A program made the position numbers and the translations under genes. Below, piece by piece: positions 24,676-36,563 of a stretch of DNA of 64,000 nucleotides (position 1 is the stretch's first letter; every line of letters begins with the position of its first letter). The DNA comes from Fimbriimonadales bacterium (GTDB lineage: Bacteria; Armatimonadota; Fimbriimonadia; Fimbriimonadales; GBS-DC), in the NCBI GenBank assembly GCA_026003075.1, contig BPGO01000003.1:214025-278024 (forward strand). Direction: 5' to 3'. A model generated the notes under the pieces. The model did no database searches, had not been told where the DNA came from, and saw nothing but the letters and a program-made list of their open reading frames with translations.

Positions 24676-27600
24676 ATGGCGGACATCTCGCGAATCAAGG
24701 CACTTAAAATCGGACTTGCATCGCCCGACGATATTCGTGCGTGGTCGTATGGCGAAGTCAAGAAGCCCGAAACCATCAACTACCGCACTTTTAAACCCGA
24801 ACGGGACGGGCTGTTTTGTGAGCGCATCTTCGGTCCCACGCGCGACTGGGAATGCTCCTGTGGACGCTATAAGCGCGTGAAGAACAAAGGGATCCGCTGC
24901 GAACGCTGCGGCGTGGAAGTGACCCGCGCGCGCGTGCGCCGCGAACGCATGGGGCACATCGAACTCGCCGCGCCCGTGTGCCACCTATGGTATCTCAAGG
25001 GGCAACCTCCCAGCCCACTCGGACTGCTTTTGGACATCCCGCCACGCCAACTGGAGAAAGTCATCTACTTCACTAACTACATGGTCATCGATATCGACCG
25101 CGCGGGGATCGAGCAGAACTTGGGCGACCTGCAGCGGATGGTCGAAGAGGAGAAACACAACTTCGACGCAGAGATCGAACGAGTCTTCAAAGAACTGGAC
25201 GCGCGTCTGGAGCAAGAGCTGGAGCAAGGACGCGACACGCTGACCGAGCAGCAAATCGTCGAACGCGTGCGTATGTACGAAAGCCGCAAAGAGAGCGAAC
25301 GCCGTGAACGCGCCGCGATGCTGCAGGAGATGGAAAAAGCCATCGAACGGCTTGCGAAGCTCCAGCAATACGAACTGCTCGATGAAAGCGCATGGCAGGG
25401 TATCGAACAACTGCTGTTGGTAGGCGCACGCAAGCTGCAGCGCGATTTGCGCCCCCTCGTGCGCGTCGGGCAGGGCGCGGAAGCGATCCGCGAACTGCTC
25501 AAACAGATTGACCTCGAAAAACTCGACCGGGAGCTGCGCGAGGAAATTAGCAAGACGCAGGGCACGCGCCGCGCCCGCGCCATCAAACGGCTCGAAATCG
25601 TGGAAGCGTTCAAAAATAGCAAGACGCGCCCCGAATGGATGATCTTGGAAGCCGTGCCCGTGCTGCCTCCAGAACTGCGCCCGATGGTGCAACTCGATGG
25701 CGGACGATTCGCCACCAGCGACCTCAACGACCTCTATCGGCGCATCGTCAACCGCAATAACCGATTGCGCAAGATTATGGAGATCCGCGCCCCCAAAAGC
25801 ATTCTCAACTCCGAGAAGCGACTGCTCCAAGAGTCTGTGGACGCGCTGATTGACAACTCCAAACGCACCAAGCCCGTCACAGGCACGGGCGGACGCCCAC
25901 TCAAGTCGCTCTCGGATATGCTCAAGGGCAAGGAAGGGCGATTCCGCAAGAACCTGCTCGGTAAGCGCGTCGACTACTCAGGACGCTCCGTCATCGTGGT
26001 CGGCCCGAACCTGCAACTCCACCAGTGCGGACTGCCCAAAGAGATGGCGCTGGAGCTGTTTAAGCCGTTCGTCATGCAACGCCTAATTCGCGACCAACTG
26101 GCGAACAATGTGAAAAACGCCAAGAACGCCATCGATCGCCAGCTGCCCGAAGTGTGGAAAGCGTTGGAAGCGGTCATCAAAGAGCATCCTGTGCTGCTGA
26201 ACCGCGCGCCGACGCTACACCGCTTGGGCATTCAGGCGTTCGAGCCGATTCTGGTAGAGGGCAAAGCGATTCAGCTCCATCCGCTCGTGTGCCACGCTTA
26301 CAACGCCGACTTTGACGGAGACCAGATGGCGGTGCATGTGCCACTTTCCTACCCCGCGCAGGCGGAGGCACGCACCCTGATGCTCTCCACGCATAACCTG
26401 TTCAAGCCCGCCGACGGTTCGCCAGTCGTCTCGCCGCTGCAAGACATCGTGCTGGGGGCGTACTACCTCACGATGAACGATCCGCAACGCCAAGAGGAAG
26501 TGCGCTTCTACTTCGCGAACCCCGACGAGGCGCGACAGGCGTTCGAGCGCGGGGAAGCCCGATTACACGAACCGATTAAGGTGCGCCTGACGCCACCGGG
26601 CGAGGAAACCCCAATACTGGTGCAGACCACAATCGGGCGACTCATCTTCCAAGAGATTATGCCCGAAGGGCTACGCTATCACCCGGATTGGCTCAACACG
26701 GTCTACAACAAGAAGATGCTCTCAGCGGTGATTCGCGAGGTGTATCAGACCTGCGGACACGCGCGCACCGTGCGTTTCTTGGACGACCTCAAGGCGCTCG
26801 GTTTCGAGTGGGGCTTGCGCGGCGGGATTACCTTCGCGCTGACCGACATGGCAGTGCCCCAGAAACGCGACGCCATCCTGCAAAAGGCATCGGAAGAGGC
26901 ACGCCTGATTGACGAACTGTATGACCGAGGTGAATTGACGCAGGACGAGAAACGCCAGCGCAAGATCGAACTCTGGCAGCGCGTATACGACGAGGTGTCC
27001 ACAGTGATGCTGCAGGAACTGCGCCCAGACAACCCGCTCTTTATTATCACCGATTCGGGCGCGCGCGGCTCCACAAAGCAGCTGGCGCAGCTGGTCGGCA
27101 TGCGTGGCTTGATGATGGGCGGGTTCGACTTCCGCTCGGGCGGTGAACGCCTCGTCGAAGAGCTGCCGGTGCGCCATAACTTCCAAGAAGGCTTGACTAC
27201 CCTGGAATACTTCGTATCGGGCTATGGGGCGCGCCGTGGGCTGGCAAGCACCGCACTGCTCACCGCCAACGCAGGCTACCTCACCCGACGCATGTGCGAT
27301 GTGGCGCAAGATGTCGTCGTGCGCGAACGCGATTGCAACACGCCCGAGGGTATCGTCGTCAGTCGTATCGAGCGCGAAGGCGACCTGATTGAGACCCTCT
27401 TCCAGCGCATCCGGGGGCGCACTGCGCGGCGCGACCTGCACCATCCCATCACGGACGAGCTTCTGGTACGCGAAAACGAGATTATCGCCGAAGCGGTCGC
27501 GACCGAAATCGATGCGCTGGCGCAGACAACTGAACGGTTCACCCAGACCCTGCGTGAACTCGCGGCGAAAGAGGAGGGCGAACTGTTTACCCCCGACGAC

Positions 27601-29268
27601 GACCAGCCGCTCAAAGACCCCTTCACGGGCGAGACGCTGCTGGAACCCTATGAGATGATTACGCAGGAGGTTCTCGACCGCCTGCACGCGCAGCGGGATA
27701 AGATTCAGGCACAGTGGGAGAAAGCAGGCTTTTCGTGGGTCGAACACGACCGCGTGGGCGTGCCCATTCGCTCGCCGCTGACCTGCAATGCGCGGCTCGG
27801 CGTGTGCGCACGGTGCTACGGGCTGGATATGGGCACCCTACGCCCTGTCGAACTCGGCACGGCAGTCGGCATCATCGCCGCCGAGTCGATTGGCGAGCCG
27901 GGGACACAGCTGACCATGCGCGTGTTCCATACAGGCGGTGTGGCAGGTGCAGGGCAACAGATCGCCGGCTTCAAAATCGGGGGTGGCGTACGCACCCTCG
28001 CCGCCACGGAACTCGAAGAGCGGGGCGCTACCCAAGAAGCCATCGACCTCGGACAAGACCAGAAGAAGGTGTTGCTCAAGGTCGCCTCGAACTTGTTAGG
28101 GAAGCCCGTGCCCGTGTTCACCATGGAAGAGGATCCACTCAGCGAGGGCGATGAGCGAATCGAGAAGCGCACGCGCGAATCGTTGCGCAAACTCGCAAAA
28201 CTCCAAGAGCCACCGAACACGGGTATCAACCGCGTGGAGGAGCTCTTCGAGGCGCGCAAGCCCAAGGGCGAAGCAATCACCGTCGACTACGAAGGTGAAG
28301 TGGTGGACATCGTCCGCTCGCTCGGACGCTGGGTGGTGATTAAAGCCACTCTGCCCGTCGGCGAGCTGCTCGTGGGCAAGATGAGCCTGGAAACGGTAGA
28401 AGACCCCGCCACAGGCGATGTGCTCCTTCAGGAGTTGGAGGAGATTCGCTCCGCGCATGTGAGCCACTTGCTGGAGGCAGGCATAGAACAGGTGACCGTG
28501 CTGGATGCCGTGCTGGTGCCGCCGCTTGGCTCGCTGGAAGTCGTCAAAGGCGACCAGGTGCTCCCGGGCGACCGCCTCACCCCAGGACCGCTGAACCCGC
28601 ACGAGCTGCTGCGCTTGCGCGGCGTGCGCGGCGTGCAGGAGTACCTCATTCAGGAGATTCAAGCGGTCTACAAAGCGCAAGGCGTGGACATCGACGACAA
28701 ACATCTGGAGATTATCATTCGCCAGATGCTGCGCAAGCGGCGTATCATCGACCCCGGCGACACCTACTTCCTGCCAGGACAAACCGTAGACCGATTCGTG
28801 TTCGAAGACGCCAATCAAAAGGTCATCGCAGAGGGTGGACGCCCTGCCACTGCCGAGTGGGTTCTGTTGGGCGTGTCCGATGCCGCACAGCAGACCGACT
28901 CGTTCCTCTCTGCCGCCTCGTTCCAGCGCACGGTCAAAGCACTCACCGAAGCCGCTGTGCGCGGCAAAGTGGACTACTTGGTTGGTTTGAAAGAGAATGT
29001 GATTATCGGGCGGCTAATCCCGGCAGGCACGGGCTATGTGAAGCCGCGCTTCGAACCGAAGTTCGAGTGGAGCGCACGCGCCGCCGAAGCCGTCGTGGAG
29101 ACCCGCCAACCCACCCTCGAGACCCTGTTCGCCGAGGAGCTGAACCCCACCAACGGCGATTCCGGCGAAGTAGAAGCCTCCATCACACTCCCAGAGGAGA
29201 TAACGCCCGAGTCGCTCGAGGACGCACCAAAACCCAAACGCAAGCGCAAAAAAGAGGATGAGGCGTAG
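24676..29268 (+). CDS. rpoC: DNA-directed RNA polymerase beta' subunit
   Basis: CSCGRYK...CERCGVEV zinc motif, [16 protein letters not shown] catalytic loop, [24 protein letters not shown]. Confidence 0.99.
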
Positions 29269-29326: not shown

Positions 29327-30217
29327 TCACTCCCACTCCTCACAGTGGTTCGGACGGGGATAGCACATCAAGAGCATGCGGTTCGGGTCGCCCTCTTTCG
29401 GACGGCTGGGCCAGCCGAAAAAGCTCGTGCGCCCATGATAGACCCCACCCTGAACCAACCAGACAGGCTTCAATTGCCCGTCTATTGTGGTCGGACGAGC
29501 GGAGAATCGAAGCATATCACCATGCCTTGAAGCATCCGGGCGTAGACGCGCCATAAACGCACGCACATGCCCATCGACGAAACTTGCCTGAACCCGCCCC
29601 TGATAACGCGACTCGTCGCCTGCCATGACACGGTCGGGAACCCCAACCCGGTGCCCATGCCGCGGATCTATACCACTGGCTGGCTCAAACCGCGCTCCAT
29701 CACTGGAGCCGAGCCAACCATCGAACCAAAACCCTGTGCTGGCGGGAAACGGTAAACGCGCGAAACTCACAGAGGGGACTTCAGGATAGGTCGCTGCATT
29801 CACGGTCAGACACCAGTTGGGCATCAAAGCGGCATGAGTCGGTTCACCCGCGCACAACGGCGTGGCGACAGGACGCGCCGTGCGCAACGCGGTCAAATCG
29901 GTCGGCTGAGTCTCCGCTGGACACAACGCGACCCGATAGTCCTTCAAATAGGGCGAGAGACATCCCCACACGGTGCGCAGACACTCACCCGTCTCCCCAC
30001 CAACGCGATAAAATGCCAGTGGGAAACACTCATCGTAATCCTGCGCATACAGCAGGGTCGCCTTACTAATCTGCCGCAAGTTCGAAACGCACACACTTGC
30101 CTTGCTGGTATGGCGCGCCGCCGCAAACACCGGGAATAGCAGTGCGGTCAACACTGCTATAATCGCAATCACTATCAACAGTTCCACCAGAGTTATTCCG
30201 CTCTGTCGGTTATTCAT
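29327..30217 (-). CDS. Prepilin-type N-terminal methylation domain protein (DUF1559/H-X9-DG-like)
   Basis: MNNRQSGITLVELLIVIAIIAVLTALLFPVFAAAR; ASFVDGHVRAF near the C-terminus. Confidence 0.85.
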   Translation of the reverse strand: MNNRQSGITLVELLIVIAIIAVLTALLFPVFAAARHTSKASVCVSNLRQISKATLLYAQDYDECFPLAFYRVGGETGECLRTVWGCLSPYLKDYRVALCPAETQPTDLTALRTARPVATPLCAGEPTHAALMPNWCLTVNAATYPEVPSVSFARLPFPASTGFWFDGWLGSSDGARFEPASGIDPRHGHRVGVPDRVMAGDESRYQGRVQASFVDGHVRAFMARLRPDASRHGDMLRFSARPTTIDGQLKPVWLVQGGVYHGRTSFFGWPSRPKEGDPNRMLLMCYPRPNHCEEWE

Positions 30218-30374
30218 GGAATCACCCCCAAATAGGACACACCACACGCGCCAACGCGCGTATTGGGCTTGGGAAATCACGAAGGTCTTTCGCGGAAGCA
30301 AAAGCAACCTGTGGGGATTATCGGCGCGAGCGAAACGAAACTGGAGTCGGGGCAGCGCCGACTACAAAAGTGGG

Positions 30375-31433
30375 TTAGACATTGAACCGCACATGAATGA
30401 CATCGCCATCGCGCATCAGATACTCTTTCCCAACCAGTTGCACCTTATTCGCTTTGTGCGCTGCTTTCCAACCGCCTGCAGCCAGCACATCGTCCGCATG
30501 GCACACTTCCGCTCGGATAAACCCCCGCGCAAGGTCAGAATGGATGGTCGCTGCAGCCTCTAAGACGGTGGCGCCTTGAGGGATTAACCATGCGCGAGAA
30601 TCGTCGCCAATAGTGTAGAATACCTGAAGGTGGAGTTGTTCATAGACCGTGCGCACCAGTGCAGGCAGCGTCGGCTCCGAGACGCCCATCATGTGCAAAA
30701 ACTCGGCTTGCTCTGTTTCCGTCAGTGCGCGGAGGTCGCGCTCAAAAGTGGCGCAGAGGCTAATCAAGGGGAGTTCGCGCTCGTTGCACAGGGATTGCAA
30801 GTGGCGTAATGGCTCCGAGCGCGTCTCGTTGCCCAGCAGACTCTCGCTGATGTTCGCCACGACCACCATCGGCTTCCGTGCGAGGAACCCAAACCCACGC
30901 AAACGCGGCTCCAAATCAGGGGGAATTTCAAAGGCACGCAACGACTCGCCTGCGCTCACCGCTCGATGCATGCGTTCCAAGAGCGCATGCTCGGCTCGAT
31001 CCGCCGCGCTCTCCTTGTGCGATTGGAACAGTTTCGTCAGTCGCTCGAGGCGGTTCTCAATGACTTGCAAATCCGCGAGGGTGAACTCGTCCAGCCAGAA
31101 TTTCAAGTCGCGCACGGGATCGATAGGGGCGTGATAGGGTGCGTAGGGGCTGTCGAACAGGCGCAACACACACACCAGCGCGTCGCTTTGGCGCGCGAGG
31201 CTAAGGGGCTGGCGCACAGTTTCGGGCTTTTCGGGGTTGAAATCGGGCAGGTCGTCGCGCCACTCAAAAGCGGCATAGGTGATTTTCTTCGCGCCCGCCT
31301 GCTTCGCTAACGCCTCAAAACGCGCATCAGGGATGGGAATGCTTGCCACGCCGTCGCGCGCATGCCCGCCCGACAGCGCCTCGAACAAGGTGGTACGCCC
31401 GCTTAACGGAAATCCGATGAGTGCGATTTTCAT
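30375..31433 (-). CDS. YchF-like TGS-domain protein with degenerate G domain
   Basis: C-terminal ARGFIRAEVCHADDVLAAGGWKAAHKANKVQLVGKEYLMRDGDVIHVRFNV is YchF TGS-like; N-terminal GFPLSGRTTLFEAL replaces the canonical P-loop. Confidence 0.85.
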   Translation of the reverse strand: MKIALIGFPLSGRTTLFEALSGGHARDGVASIPIPDARFEALAKQAGAKKITYAAFEWRDDLPDFNPEKPETVRQPLSLARQSDALVCVLRLFDSPYAPYHAPIDPVRDLKFWLDEFTLADLQVIENRLERLTKLFQSHKESAADRAEHALLERMHRAVSAGESLRAFEIPPDLEPRLRGFGFLARKPMVVVANISESLLGNETRSEPLRHLQSLCNERELPLISLCATFERDLRALTETEQAEFLHMMGVSEPTLPALVRTVYEQLHLQVFYTIGDDSRAWLIPQGATVLEAAATIHSDLARGFIRAEVCHADDVLAAGGWKAAHKANKVQLVGKEYLMRDGDVIHVRFNV

Positions 31434-31570
31434 GGTATAAATTCAACTTGGAGCGAGGGTTTGGGGTGTTGCGAAGGCAGGTACCAGAACCAGTAGACAA
31501 TGAGTGCCAGCGCAAGCGTGAGCGCCAGCATTCGCAACACCTTCGCCCAGATACTTTTCTGGCGGCGCAT
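31430..31570 (-). CDS. Small single-TM protein (46 aa), start-stop overlap with the ychF-like gene
   Basis: MRRQKSIWAKVLRMLALTLALALIVYWFWYLPSQHPKPSLQVEFIP; ATGA overlap with 31433 start; TATATT 7 nt before ATG. Confidence 0.55.
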   Translation of the reverse strand: MRRQKSIWAKVLRMLALTLALALIVYWFWYLPSQHPKPSLQVEFIP

Positions 31571-32490: not shown

Positions 32491-34308
32491 TTGCGCGATC
32501 TGCGCGAGGAAATACGGGATCGAATCGACCTGGTCGAGCTGGTCTCGAACTATGTGTCGCTGGAACGGGCAGGGAAAAACTTCAAGGGACTCTGCCCGTT
32601 CCATACCGAGAAAACGCCCTCATTTCATGTAAGCCCCGCGCTGAACCGATTCCACTGCTTCGGCTGCGGCGCCTCAGGCGACGCCTTCAGCTTCCTGATG
32701 CGCATCGAGGGTATCTCCTTTCGCGAAGCGATGCGCCGCCTCGCCGAGCGCGCCGGAATCGAGCTCCGCGCCGAAGCGCTGCCTCAAGAAGCCCCTGACG
32801 AACGCGAACGCCTGCGCAAACTGGTCTACGCCTCGAACTTTTTCTATCGCCAGTGCCTCAAGCGCACCCCCACCGCGCAGCAGTACCTGTCGGCGCGCGG
32901 CTTGACCCCTGAAACCATCGACGCCTTTGAACTGGGCTACGCGCCCGACGGGTGGGACTACCTGCTTAGATTCCTGCAGCGACACAACTTCAGCCTGCAG
33001 GACGCAGAGGCGGCGGGCTTGCTCAAAGCACGGGAGGACGGCAGCGGCTACTACGACCGCTTCCGCAACCGAATCACTTTTCCCATTCACGACGCTTCGG
33101 GGCGCGTGATCGCGTTCGGCGCCCGCACGATGGGCAACGAGGAGCCGAAATACCTCAACAGCCCCGAAACACCGCTGTTCGAGAAACGCAACACTTTCTA
33201 CGGCTGGCATCGTGCGCGGGGGGAAATCCTCCAACGGCGTGCTGCGATTATCGTCGAGGGCTATCTCGATTTGATTATGCTCCATCAATACGGCTTTACC
33301 CATAGCCTGGCGACTCTGGGTACCGCGTTCACAGACGACCACGCGTCGCGCCTAAAACGCCTCGCAGACCGCGTGTACCTGATGTTCGACTCCGACTCTG
33401 CGGGTGTGCGTGCGGCGCTGCGTGCGGGCGAGATCCTACTGCAGGCAGGGATCCCGACGCTGGTCGTCCGCCTACCTCAAGGCGAAGACCCCGACAGCCT
33501 GCTGCGGACGCACGGCGCAGAGGCGTTGCAACGCGCCTTAGACCAGGCGACTCCGATTGCCCTGTTCGGCATCGAGCAGATTATTCGTGAAGTCGCGGGG
33601 GAGCGCAATCCTCTGGAGCTGGAGCCTTCCTTCAAGGCGCAGATTGTGGCGCGTGGGCTGGAGTGGGCGGCGAGTCTCCCCAGCGAACTCGAGCGGTTGA
33701 CCTGCCTGGAACGGCTCGCACCCTTCACGCCCCTCTATCAAACTCAAATGCATGCCGCGCTGCCCGCCTTGCAACAGGAGCTGCGCCGAGTACAACGCGC
33801 ACGCCGACGCACGCGCGTTGCCGCCCCCAATTCCGCCTCCGCCCTCGCGCCCCCACCGACAGCGTCCCTACTGCGGCACATCCCCAAAGCGGTTTTCCAA
33901 GCGGAAAGTGAGACCTTGCGTGCCACGCTTTATCGCGACTCGGCACCCGTCGCGATGGAAAACCTCCCCACCATCGAGTGGCAAGTCCCTCTACACGCCC
34001 AATTAGCAGAACGCCTATGCGCCCTGCCCAAGCCCCCGTGCGATTATGAACCCGCGGAACTCCTTCAACTCATCGAGGAGGAGCCACTGCGAGACCTGCT
34101 CACGGCTCTGCTCTTGCAGGAATCCCCACCAATGACGCTCGAATGGGCGACGGGCTGTATCCAGCGACTGAAGGAATATGCCCTGCGCCGAAAACGCCTA
34201 CGACTGGCGGCGGAACTCACCCAACAACCGCCCCACGAAAACATTGACCCCCAAAGCGCCGAAAAATTGCAGGAATACTGGCGCATCCGCGTCGAATCTA
34301 TAAAGTAA
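32491..34308 (+). CDS. dnaG: DNA primase
   Basis: [38 protein letters not shown] zinc domain; [47 protein letters not shown]. Confidence 0.97.
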
Positions 34309-34322
34309 AGGGAGGTTGCCCT

Positions 34323-35360
34323 ATGGATGACTGGCTGAAATCTTCGCATGAGCTGCATGCGTTAATCGAGAGCGGACGACAACGGGGCTATATTACGATC
34401 GAAGCATTGCTTGAAGCGCTGCCGGAAATCGAAATCGATCCTGAAGCCATCGAGTCGGTATTGGCACATCTCGAATCGCATGGGGTGCGCGTGTTGGGTG
34501 AGGAGGACGCAGCGGAGCGTGAACTGCGCCAACTGTCGGAGCGTGCCGAGCAGTTCATCGAGGAAGTGGAGCGCGAGACGCTGGAGGATGCCGTGCAATG
34601 GTGGGCGCAGCAAGCGGCACGAGCACCACGCCTCACGCCCGAACAGGAGCATGAACTGGCAGTGCGCGCCGCCGAAGGCGACGAACACGCCCGCGAACAG
34701 CTCGTGCAGGCGAACCTGCGCCTCGTCATCTCCATCGCCAAACACTACACAGGACGCGGATTGTCTATGATCGACTTGATTCAAGAGGGCAATCTGGGGC
34801 TGATGCGTGCGGCAACACAGTACGACCCGAAACGCGGCAATCGGTTCAGCACCTATGCCACTTGGTGGATACGCCAGGCAATCTCACGCGCACTGCAGGA
34901 ACAAGCCGCGCTCATCCGTGTACCGCAACATATGACAAAAACGCTCCAGCAAGTGCGTCAAACCGCAGCCCTGCTCCAGCAAGAACTTGGACGCGAGCCG
35001 ACCGTTCACGAAGTGGCGCATCGTGCGAAACTCACTCCCGAACAGGTGCGTGAGCTGATGTATGCCATCGCGAAACCCATCTCGCTGGAGATGCCCATCA
35101 ACGATAGCGACGGCTCTGTGCTGGGCGATATTATTGCCGCGGAAACTGCCGAGGAGTGGGAACAAGCCATCGACTGGGAAAGCCTGATGCAACACCTGAA
35201 CGAACGCGAGAAAGCGGTCATACGCCTCCGTTATGGGCTTGCGGGCGAGCCACCGATGACCCTCGAAGAGGTCGGCAAGCGGCTCGGCTTGAGCAAAGAA
35301 CGCGTGCGACAGCTCGAATCACGCGCGATCCAGAAAATGCAGGAGGCAGCACGCGCCTAA
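34323..35360 (+). CDS. rpoD: RNA polymerase primary sigma factor (RpoD/SigA)
   Basis: [35 protein letters not shown] and [27 protein letters not shown]. Confidence 0.96.
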
Positions 35361-35361
35361 A

Positions 35362-35871
35362 ATGCCGTCAGGCAAGGTACACGATTGGGTCACTATCGGT
35401 ACCGCGCTGGGGGCTATCCCCCTCACCGGGATGTACCTGCCCCCCGAAACGCGCCCCTTAGCATGGCTGGCAATCGCCAGCTACACCTTTTCAGGCATCT
35501 GGCTCTCCAGCGATTTGGATGTGCAATCCAGCGCGTACCGCCGCTGGGGACCGTTGCGCTTCCTCTGGCTTCCCTATCAGAAGCTGGTCCCCCATCGCAG
35601 CTGGATCTCCCACGGGTTGGGCGTCGGTCCCATCCTGCGTGTGGCGTACTTGGTTGGGGTAATCGTCGTGCTGATTATGGGAGTGAACTGGCTTCTGGCG
35701 CGAATCGGGTTGGCGCTGCAGGTAGACCCACACAGTTGGCTGCTGCACGCCACCGACTGGGTGTTCACCTATCAGCGTGAGGTATGGGCGCTCCTCATCG
35801 GCTTGGTGGCAGGTGGCGCAGCGCACTCGTTGCTCGACTTCGCACACACTCGGCTCAAACGGTGGTTCTAA
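35362..35871 (+). CDS. Metal-binding DUF2227-like membrane protein
   Basis: MPSGKVHDWVTIGTALG ... SSDLDVQSSAYRRWGPLRFLWLPYQKLVPHRSWISHG. Confidence 0.75.
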   Translation: MPSGKVHDWVTIGTALGAIPLTGMYLPPETRPLAWLAIASYTFSGIWLSSDLDVQSSAYRRWGPLRFLWLPYQKLVPHRSWISHGLGVGPILRVAYLVGVIVVLIMGVNWLLARIGLALQVDPHSWLLHATDWVFTYQREVWALLIGLVAGGAAHSLLDFAHTRLKRWF

Positions 35872-36563
35872 TGGAATCGACGCGCTACACAACCATTCGC
35901 GAGTTGCCCCCCGAAGAGCGTCCCCGTGAAAAGCTGGCGCATTGGGGCGCGTCCACCCTGCACGAGTACGAACTGCTGGCAATCCTGCTGCGCACAGGCA
36001 CAACGCACATGTCCGCGCTGCAGCTGGCACAGTATCTACTTCACAAGTTCGGCGGGGTACGCGGCGTAATGCACGCCAGCGTGCAGGAACTGGCGACCAT
36101 CAAGGGCATGGGGCTGGCGAAAGCCACCCAAATCGCCGCCGCAATGGAGTTGGGCAGGCGAGTCGCACTCAGCCAGTTCCACGAGCGTCCCCAAATCCGC
36201 TCGCCCGAAGATGTCTATCAACTCATGCACATGCATCTGCTCGGCGAACGACGAGAGCACTTCCTTGCGGTCATGCTGGACACCAAAAACCGCGTGCTGC
36301 GCACCGAGACCATCTCCATCGGCACGCTGGACAGCAGCCTCGTCCATCCGCGCGAAGTGTATCGCGTCGTGATTCGGGAAGGGGCAGCGAGCTGGATCGC
36401 CGTGCATAACCATCCCAGCGGCGACCCAACACCCAGCCCCGAAGACATCGCCATTACCCAACGCCTAAAGCAAGCAGGTGAACTGCTCGGCGTTGAACTG
36501 CTGGATCACCTCATCCTCGGCGACGGAAACTATACCAGTTTGCGCGAAAAAGGCTACCTCTAA
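35871..36563 (+). CDS. radC: RadC family (JAB/MPN domain) protein
   Basis: ELPPEERPREKLAHWGASTLHEYELLAILLRTGT; HNHPSGDPTPSPEDIAITQRLKQAGELLGVELLDHLILGDG. Start overlaps the previous stop (TAATGG). Confidence 0.95.
   Translation: MESTRYTTIRELPPEERPREKLAHWGASTLHEYELLAILLRTGTTHMSALQLAQYLLHKFGGVRGVMHASVQELATIKGMGLAKATQIAAAMELGRRVALSQFHERPQIRSPEDVYQLMHMHLLGERREHFLAVMLDTKNRVLRTETISIGTLDSSLVHPREVYRVVIREGAASWIAVHNHPSGDPTPSPEDIAITQRLKQAGELLGVELLDHLILGDGNYTSLREKGYL

Follow-up and report, generated by a model that had tools for sequence, protein, structure and literature searches.

The ychF-like gene and its surroundings

The window, a 64,000-nucleotide stretch of DNA from a Fimbriimonadales bacterium, carries a ychF-like gene at positions 30375–31433 on the minus strand. 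The gene has an intact reading frame with an ATG start and encodes a switch-I-less YchF of 352 amino acids, as identified from the open reading frame, PF06071, TGS and TIGR00092 matches, an AF2 model and Foldseek. The region upstream of its start (31434–31480) is without a clear Shine-Dalgarno sequence (TTGAATTTATACC-ATG, minus strand). The product of the neighbouring gene (29327–30307, minus strand) has an N-terminal methylation motif (type IV pilin-like); since this signal begins near residue 31, the TTG start in the open reading frame list is probably too far upstream. Around the locus lie genes for rpoC, dnaG, a sigma-70 factor, a DUF2227 protein and RadC, at 24676–29268, 32491–34308, 34323–35360, 35362–35871 and 35784–36563 (+). 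Clustering of open reading frames flanking switch-I-less genes, with the clusters unannotated, revealed no family that recurred widely outside close relatives.

The encoded protein aligned from end to end with YchF proteins of solved structure, across the G, helical and TGS domains (phmmer, 1.1e-45 to 1jal). PF06071 scored 93.5 bits against a gathering cut-off of 27 and TGS 30.3 bits against 22.2, bearing out the near-canonical C-terminus reported in a preliminary description; the YchF C-terminal/TGS domain spans residues 269–351 (30381–30629, minus strand). Structure prediction, a check proposed in that description, modelled the whole chain as a YchF fold (AF2, mean pLDDT 93.8, pTM 0.89). The best 15 PDB matches to the model in Foldseek were all YchF/OLA1, led by 8kie_y (TMq 0.87), the YchF of E. 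coli bound to the 50S subunit. These results rule out a chance match or another P-loop family, and the model indicates that the protein most likely still folds as a YchF. The score for TIGR00092 ('redox-regulated ATPase YchF', an equivalog model) was 180.6 bits, below the curated cut-off of 279.2. Membership of the PRK09602/NF007171 YchF-related GTPases was excluded, the short and weak TGS match reaching 30 bits against a cut-off of 387.

Motif state of the window protein

In the alignment, the P-loop (G1) reads GFPLSGRTT where canonical YchF has GLPNVGKST (residues 7–15; 31389–31415, minus strand). It thereby departs from Walker A, GxxxxGK(S/T), in that the lysine is replaced by Arg13, encoded by CGT (31395–31397, minus strand). 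The distance from G1 to PDxR is 20 residues compared with 30 in canonical YchF; a 10-residue deletion has therefore removed ANYPFCTIEPN, the G2/switch I motif with its Thr, and a short loop, GGHARDGVA, stands at its site (residues 22–30; 31344–31370, minus strand). Both changes had been read correctly in the preliminary description, as had the NxxE of G4 in KPMVVVANISE (residues 187–197; 30843–30875, minus strand). The NISE of this motif is of the type associated with adenine preference, and all 39 switch-I-less proteins of alignment A2 carry N194 and E197. The replacement reported for the G3 region was likewise confirmed, the glycine being the part of DxxG that is lost. Within the altered G3/switch II segment FEWRDDLPDFNPEKPETVR (residues 56–74; 31212–31268, minus strand), RDDLPDFNPEKPETVR aligns where canonical YchF has VDIAGLVAGASKGEGLGN, replacing the canonical stretch VDIAGLVAGASKGEG. 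The DxxG Gly is gone, having become Pro in all 14 family members that lost the Walker A lysine, but the G3 Asp (D60) is kept. Loop A, RLFDSPYAPYHAPIDP (residues 91–106; 31116–31163, minus strand; role from PMC9748339), retains His101 and the base-stacking Phe93 in all 16 family members, His101 lying one column from the position of the catalytic His114.

The window YchF thus shares with the YchF/OLA1 ATPases (TIGR00092; E. coli 8kie, H. influenzae 1jal, T. thermophilus 2dby and rice 5ee0) full-length homology, the three-domain fold, the NxxE G4, the G3 Asp, the base-stacking Phe and the TGS C-terminus. It differs from them in the missing switch I, the Gly-to-Pro change in DxxG, the Lys-to-Arg change in Walker A and the score below the TIGR00092 cut-off. 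Lacking the switch I Thr, the DxxG Gly and the Walker A Lys, it is plausibly a pseudo-ATPase, judging by its sequence. Proteins that keep the G-domain fold with catalytic motifs lost are known as pseudoGTPases, for example the pseudo-G domains of p190RhoGAP. Fold and motif loss are what they have in common with the window YchF, with no further sequence relation, and the latter is a whole YchF kept as the sole orthologue.

Copy number, orthology and selection

The preliminary description took the protein for a pseudo-ATPase paralogue and proposed a search for a canonical ychF elsewhere in the genome. The paralogue half of that reading found no support: neither PF06071 nor TIGR00092 revealed a second YchF, canonical or otherwise, in the window genome (2.6 Mb, 84% complete). 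The remaining TIGR00092 matches covered short stretches and scored 13–47 bits, in line with what other P-loop proteins would give. At 84% completeness a second copy could be missing from the assembly, but fuller relatives show none; exactly one copy was present in all 16 window-family genomes that have the gene, several of them 93–100% complete. The window YchF appears to be the organism's only YchF, and its identity as the organism's own single-copy orthologue or replacement is well supported. A recent paralogue next to a canonical YchF is rejected for this genome and its family, within the limits of the assemblies. Assembly or sequencing error was also excluded, since all 12 genus genomes with the gene encode Arg at this position, including the single-contig, 3.0 Mb genome G164.

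In a survey of 291 genomes of the phylum, 266 had a PF06071 gene, 13 of these with two copies and the rest with one. Only three genomes, of a sister family (G080, G093 and G094), held a canonical and a switch-less YchF together (L251, L237 and L248 against L078, L035 and L027), and the switch-less copy had a GR P-loop in all three. No PF06071 YchF was detected in four Armatimonadota genomes that are 97–100% complete (G172, G137, G225 and G233), where a switch-less G-domain profile gave only weak P-loop matches. Two of these, G172 and G137 (97–98%), are near-complete relatives, so the gene can be lost and its function is dispensable in some.

The relatives without YchF might suggest that the window gene, too, is decaying towards loss and has no present function. 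This is very improbable: the reading frame is intact in 12 genus genomes, the Arg13 codon has turned over synonymously between CGT and CGC among them, and pairwise dN/dS within the genus was 0.05–0.10 over the whole gene, G domain included. Values were 0.03–0.09 for residues 1–130 and 0.04–0.08 for TGS where computable; because several dS values approach saturation, the close pairs (dS 0.36–0.50) are the best guide to these ratios. Sequences within the genus were on average 0.85–0.90 identical across the G1 and G3 regions, compared with 0.86 for TGS. The G domain is therefore as constrained as TGS, and the degenerate G domain is maintained under purifying selection. The dN/dS values also rule out a pseudogene.

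A switch-I-less class of bacterial YchF

A first alignment combined the full-length proteins of about 110 loci in the phylum with 75 obtained by scanning named genomes, and 40 more from the order were then added. Explicit motif rules classed 63 as canonical, 20 as lacking switch I but retaining DxxG, and 139 as lacking both. Switch-I-less YchFs were found in at least eight phyla, among them Armatimonadota, Chloroflexota, Acidobacteriota, Bacillota, Nitrospirota, Hydrogenedentota and Cyanobacteriota; sampling was uneven, as one phylum was better represented in the search alignment than the others. Many of the sources are metagenome-assembled genomes, and isolates include Moorella thermoacetica DSM 21394 and Dictyobacter kobayashii. 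Exactly one PF06071 gene was found in 33 of the 34 such genomes searched, whose completeness is not given and one of which (L136) is canonical by rule.

In a tree rooted on plant OLA1, which is canonical, 89 of the 94 switch-I-less rows formed one nested clade (support 100/98). The phylogeny, a check proposed in the preliminary description, places the window YchF inside this clade; it also shows the other two features by which we define the class, lacking YPFxTIxxN and being the sole YchF found in its genome. When the columns from G1 to loop A were removed, the 89 switch-I-less rows still grouped (SH-aLRT 78), as did 90 rows that included one canonical row (SH-aLRT 99); the clade is therefore independent of the columns that define the trait. 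The phylogenetic analysis excluded sixteen long-branch rows. Moorella and its relatives, at the base, lack switch I and keep DxxG. As read from this tree, switch-I-less YchF is an old bacterial class, usually the sole YchF, of which the window YchF is a derived member. Motif decay looks stepwise, with switch I lost first (G3 being kept, as in Moorella), then the DxxG Gly, and then the Walker A Lys in some tips.

Clade members such as the YchFs of Moorella thermoacetica (L122), Anaerolineaceae (L152) and Acidobacteriota (L153) resemble the window YchF in lacking YPFxTIxxN and in being mostly the sole YchF. Unlike it, they have the Walker A Lys, and DxxG is kept in Moorella and most Anaerolineaceae proteins. 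L122, L152 and L153 score above the TIGR00092 cut-off and so would be named ATPase by the NCBI model. The motif losses noted in the preliminary description are real, but those of switch I and usually DxAGL are common to a class spanning many phyla; in the window lineage, the one recent loss is that of Walker A. In the part of the literature covered, we found no report of a switch-less YchF class, nor of YchF with DUF933 or in an Armatimonad.

Loss of the Walker A lysine

The Walker A Lys was lost in 28 of 136 readable, fully decayed proteins (26 to Arg, two to Cys) compared with none of 83 others, and parsimony required 10 changes. The association between switch loss and lysine loss was not significant, with only three independent pairs on well-supported branches. 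Within the window family, G173 and G174 have Lys, G159 and G175 (two sister genera) have Cys and the genus itself has Arg, so that the order of lysine loss is visible in these sequences. Two proteins of the same switch-less class from Chloroflexota (Dehalococcoidia and related; L180 and L165) also have Arg for this Lys, in GLSKSGRTT and GLAKSGRTT.

A partly retained pocket and a proposed non-switching YchF

In the 28 proteins that lost the lysine, the second P-loop Gly and the S/T after it are always present, as are the G3 Asp and both the N and the E of G4. The base-stacking Phe (equivalent to Phe107) was kept in 30 of 30 proteins, comprising 16 family members and 14 other proteins without the lysine. 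AtYchF1 uses its P-loop to hold the alpha and beta phosphates, its G1 Ser to bind Mg and its G4 Asn to recognize the base (PMC9748339). The G2 Thr and the DxxG Gly are gamma-phosphate-sensing, switching parts (PMC8959515). With the holding parts kept and the sensing and switching parts missing, the site of the window YchF may still hold a nucleotide but would be unable to switch.

Cross-linking of E. coli YchF showed that contacts with the ribosome and IF3 are made mainly through the N-terminal ATPase domain (PMC8138138). At residue 114 the E. coli YchF in 8kie has Ala, whereas the H. influenzae and T. thermophilus proteins have the catalytic His there; the 8kie chain thus looks like a hydrolysis mutant. 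The presence of this Ala114 form on the 50S subunit suggests that binding need not require hydrolysis and, together with the N-terminal contacts, makes ribosome binding without hydrolysis plausible. For the window YchF, ribosome binding through TGS, as first proposed, is possible, but the E. coli contacts lie mainly in the N-terminal domain and, in the genus, conservation of the G domain equals that of TGS.

We consider it probable, at roughly two in three, that the window YchF is the organism's own single-copy YchF, acting as a ribosome-associated, non-switching pseudo-ATPase that probably holds nucleotide. Its most likely role would be that of a modulator of translation or stress, associated with ribosomes and initiation factors. 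Its G domain would be a fixed scaffold, perhaps holding an adenine nucleotide through the P-loop Gly, S/T, Asp60, Phe93 and NxxE; it would be unable to toggle between ATP and ADP states, with hydrolysis poor or none, making the protein constitutive.

The G domain might instead bind no nucleotide and act only as a structural or protein-contact surface. The combined loss of the Walker A Lys, switch I Thr and DxxG Gly, the conservation of the domain despite these losses, and the contacts of the E. coli N-terminal domain with ribosomal proteins and IF3 (PMC8138138) would all fit such a pocket. We nevertheless regard it as unlikely, because retention of the P-loop Gly, S/T, G3 Asp, NxxE and base-stacking Phe in the lysine-less proteins is hard to explain if nucleotide is never bound. 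Conversely, the site could be an unconventional but active ATPase in which Arg13 replaces the Lys and His101 takes the role of His114. All 16 family members have a His in the loop-A window, as do 12 of 14 other lysine-less proteins, and the substitution is Arg in 26 of 28 cases. However, the switch I Thr that would complete the Mg site is absent, the DxxG Gly is lost, and the Cys of the two sister genera cannot replace Lys, so we judge activity of this kind to be quite unlikely. Several points still count against the non-switching pseudo-ATPase: the P-loop Arg might allow weak hydrolysis, a loop-A His (His101) persists only one column away from the His114 position, two near-complete relatives (G172 and G137) do without any YchF, and a second copy could be missing from the 84% complete genome.

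More tentatively, and with less than even confidence, we propose that the whole bacterial class acts at the ribosome with no nucleotide switch, and that several lineages, including that of the window, lost the Walker A Lys under selection that kept the rest of the pocket, YchF being a fixed and possibly ligand-sensing scaffold. If so, the conserved role needs no ATPase cycle. YchF/OLA1 is habitually described as a universally conserved ATPase, with no unifying mechanism agreed (PMC11237923), and switch-less YchFs across many bacterial phyla challenge the view that YchF is always an ATP-driven switch. If the switch-less form is the only one in a large share of bacteria, the cultured Moorella thermoacetica among them, and even the Walker A Lys is gone from some lineages, then binding rather than ATP turnover is likely to be what makes YchF essential, a question that these natural variants make directly testable. 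Current annotation hides such proteins, as some score as 'ATPase' and others fall below the model cut-off.
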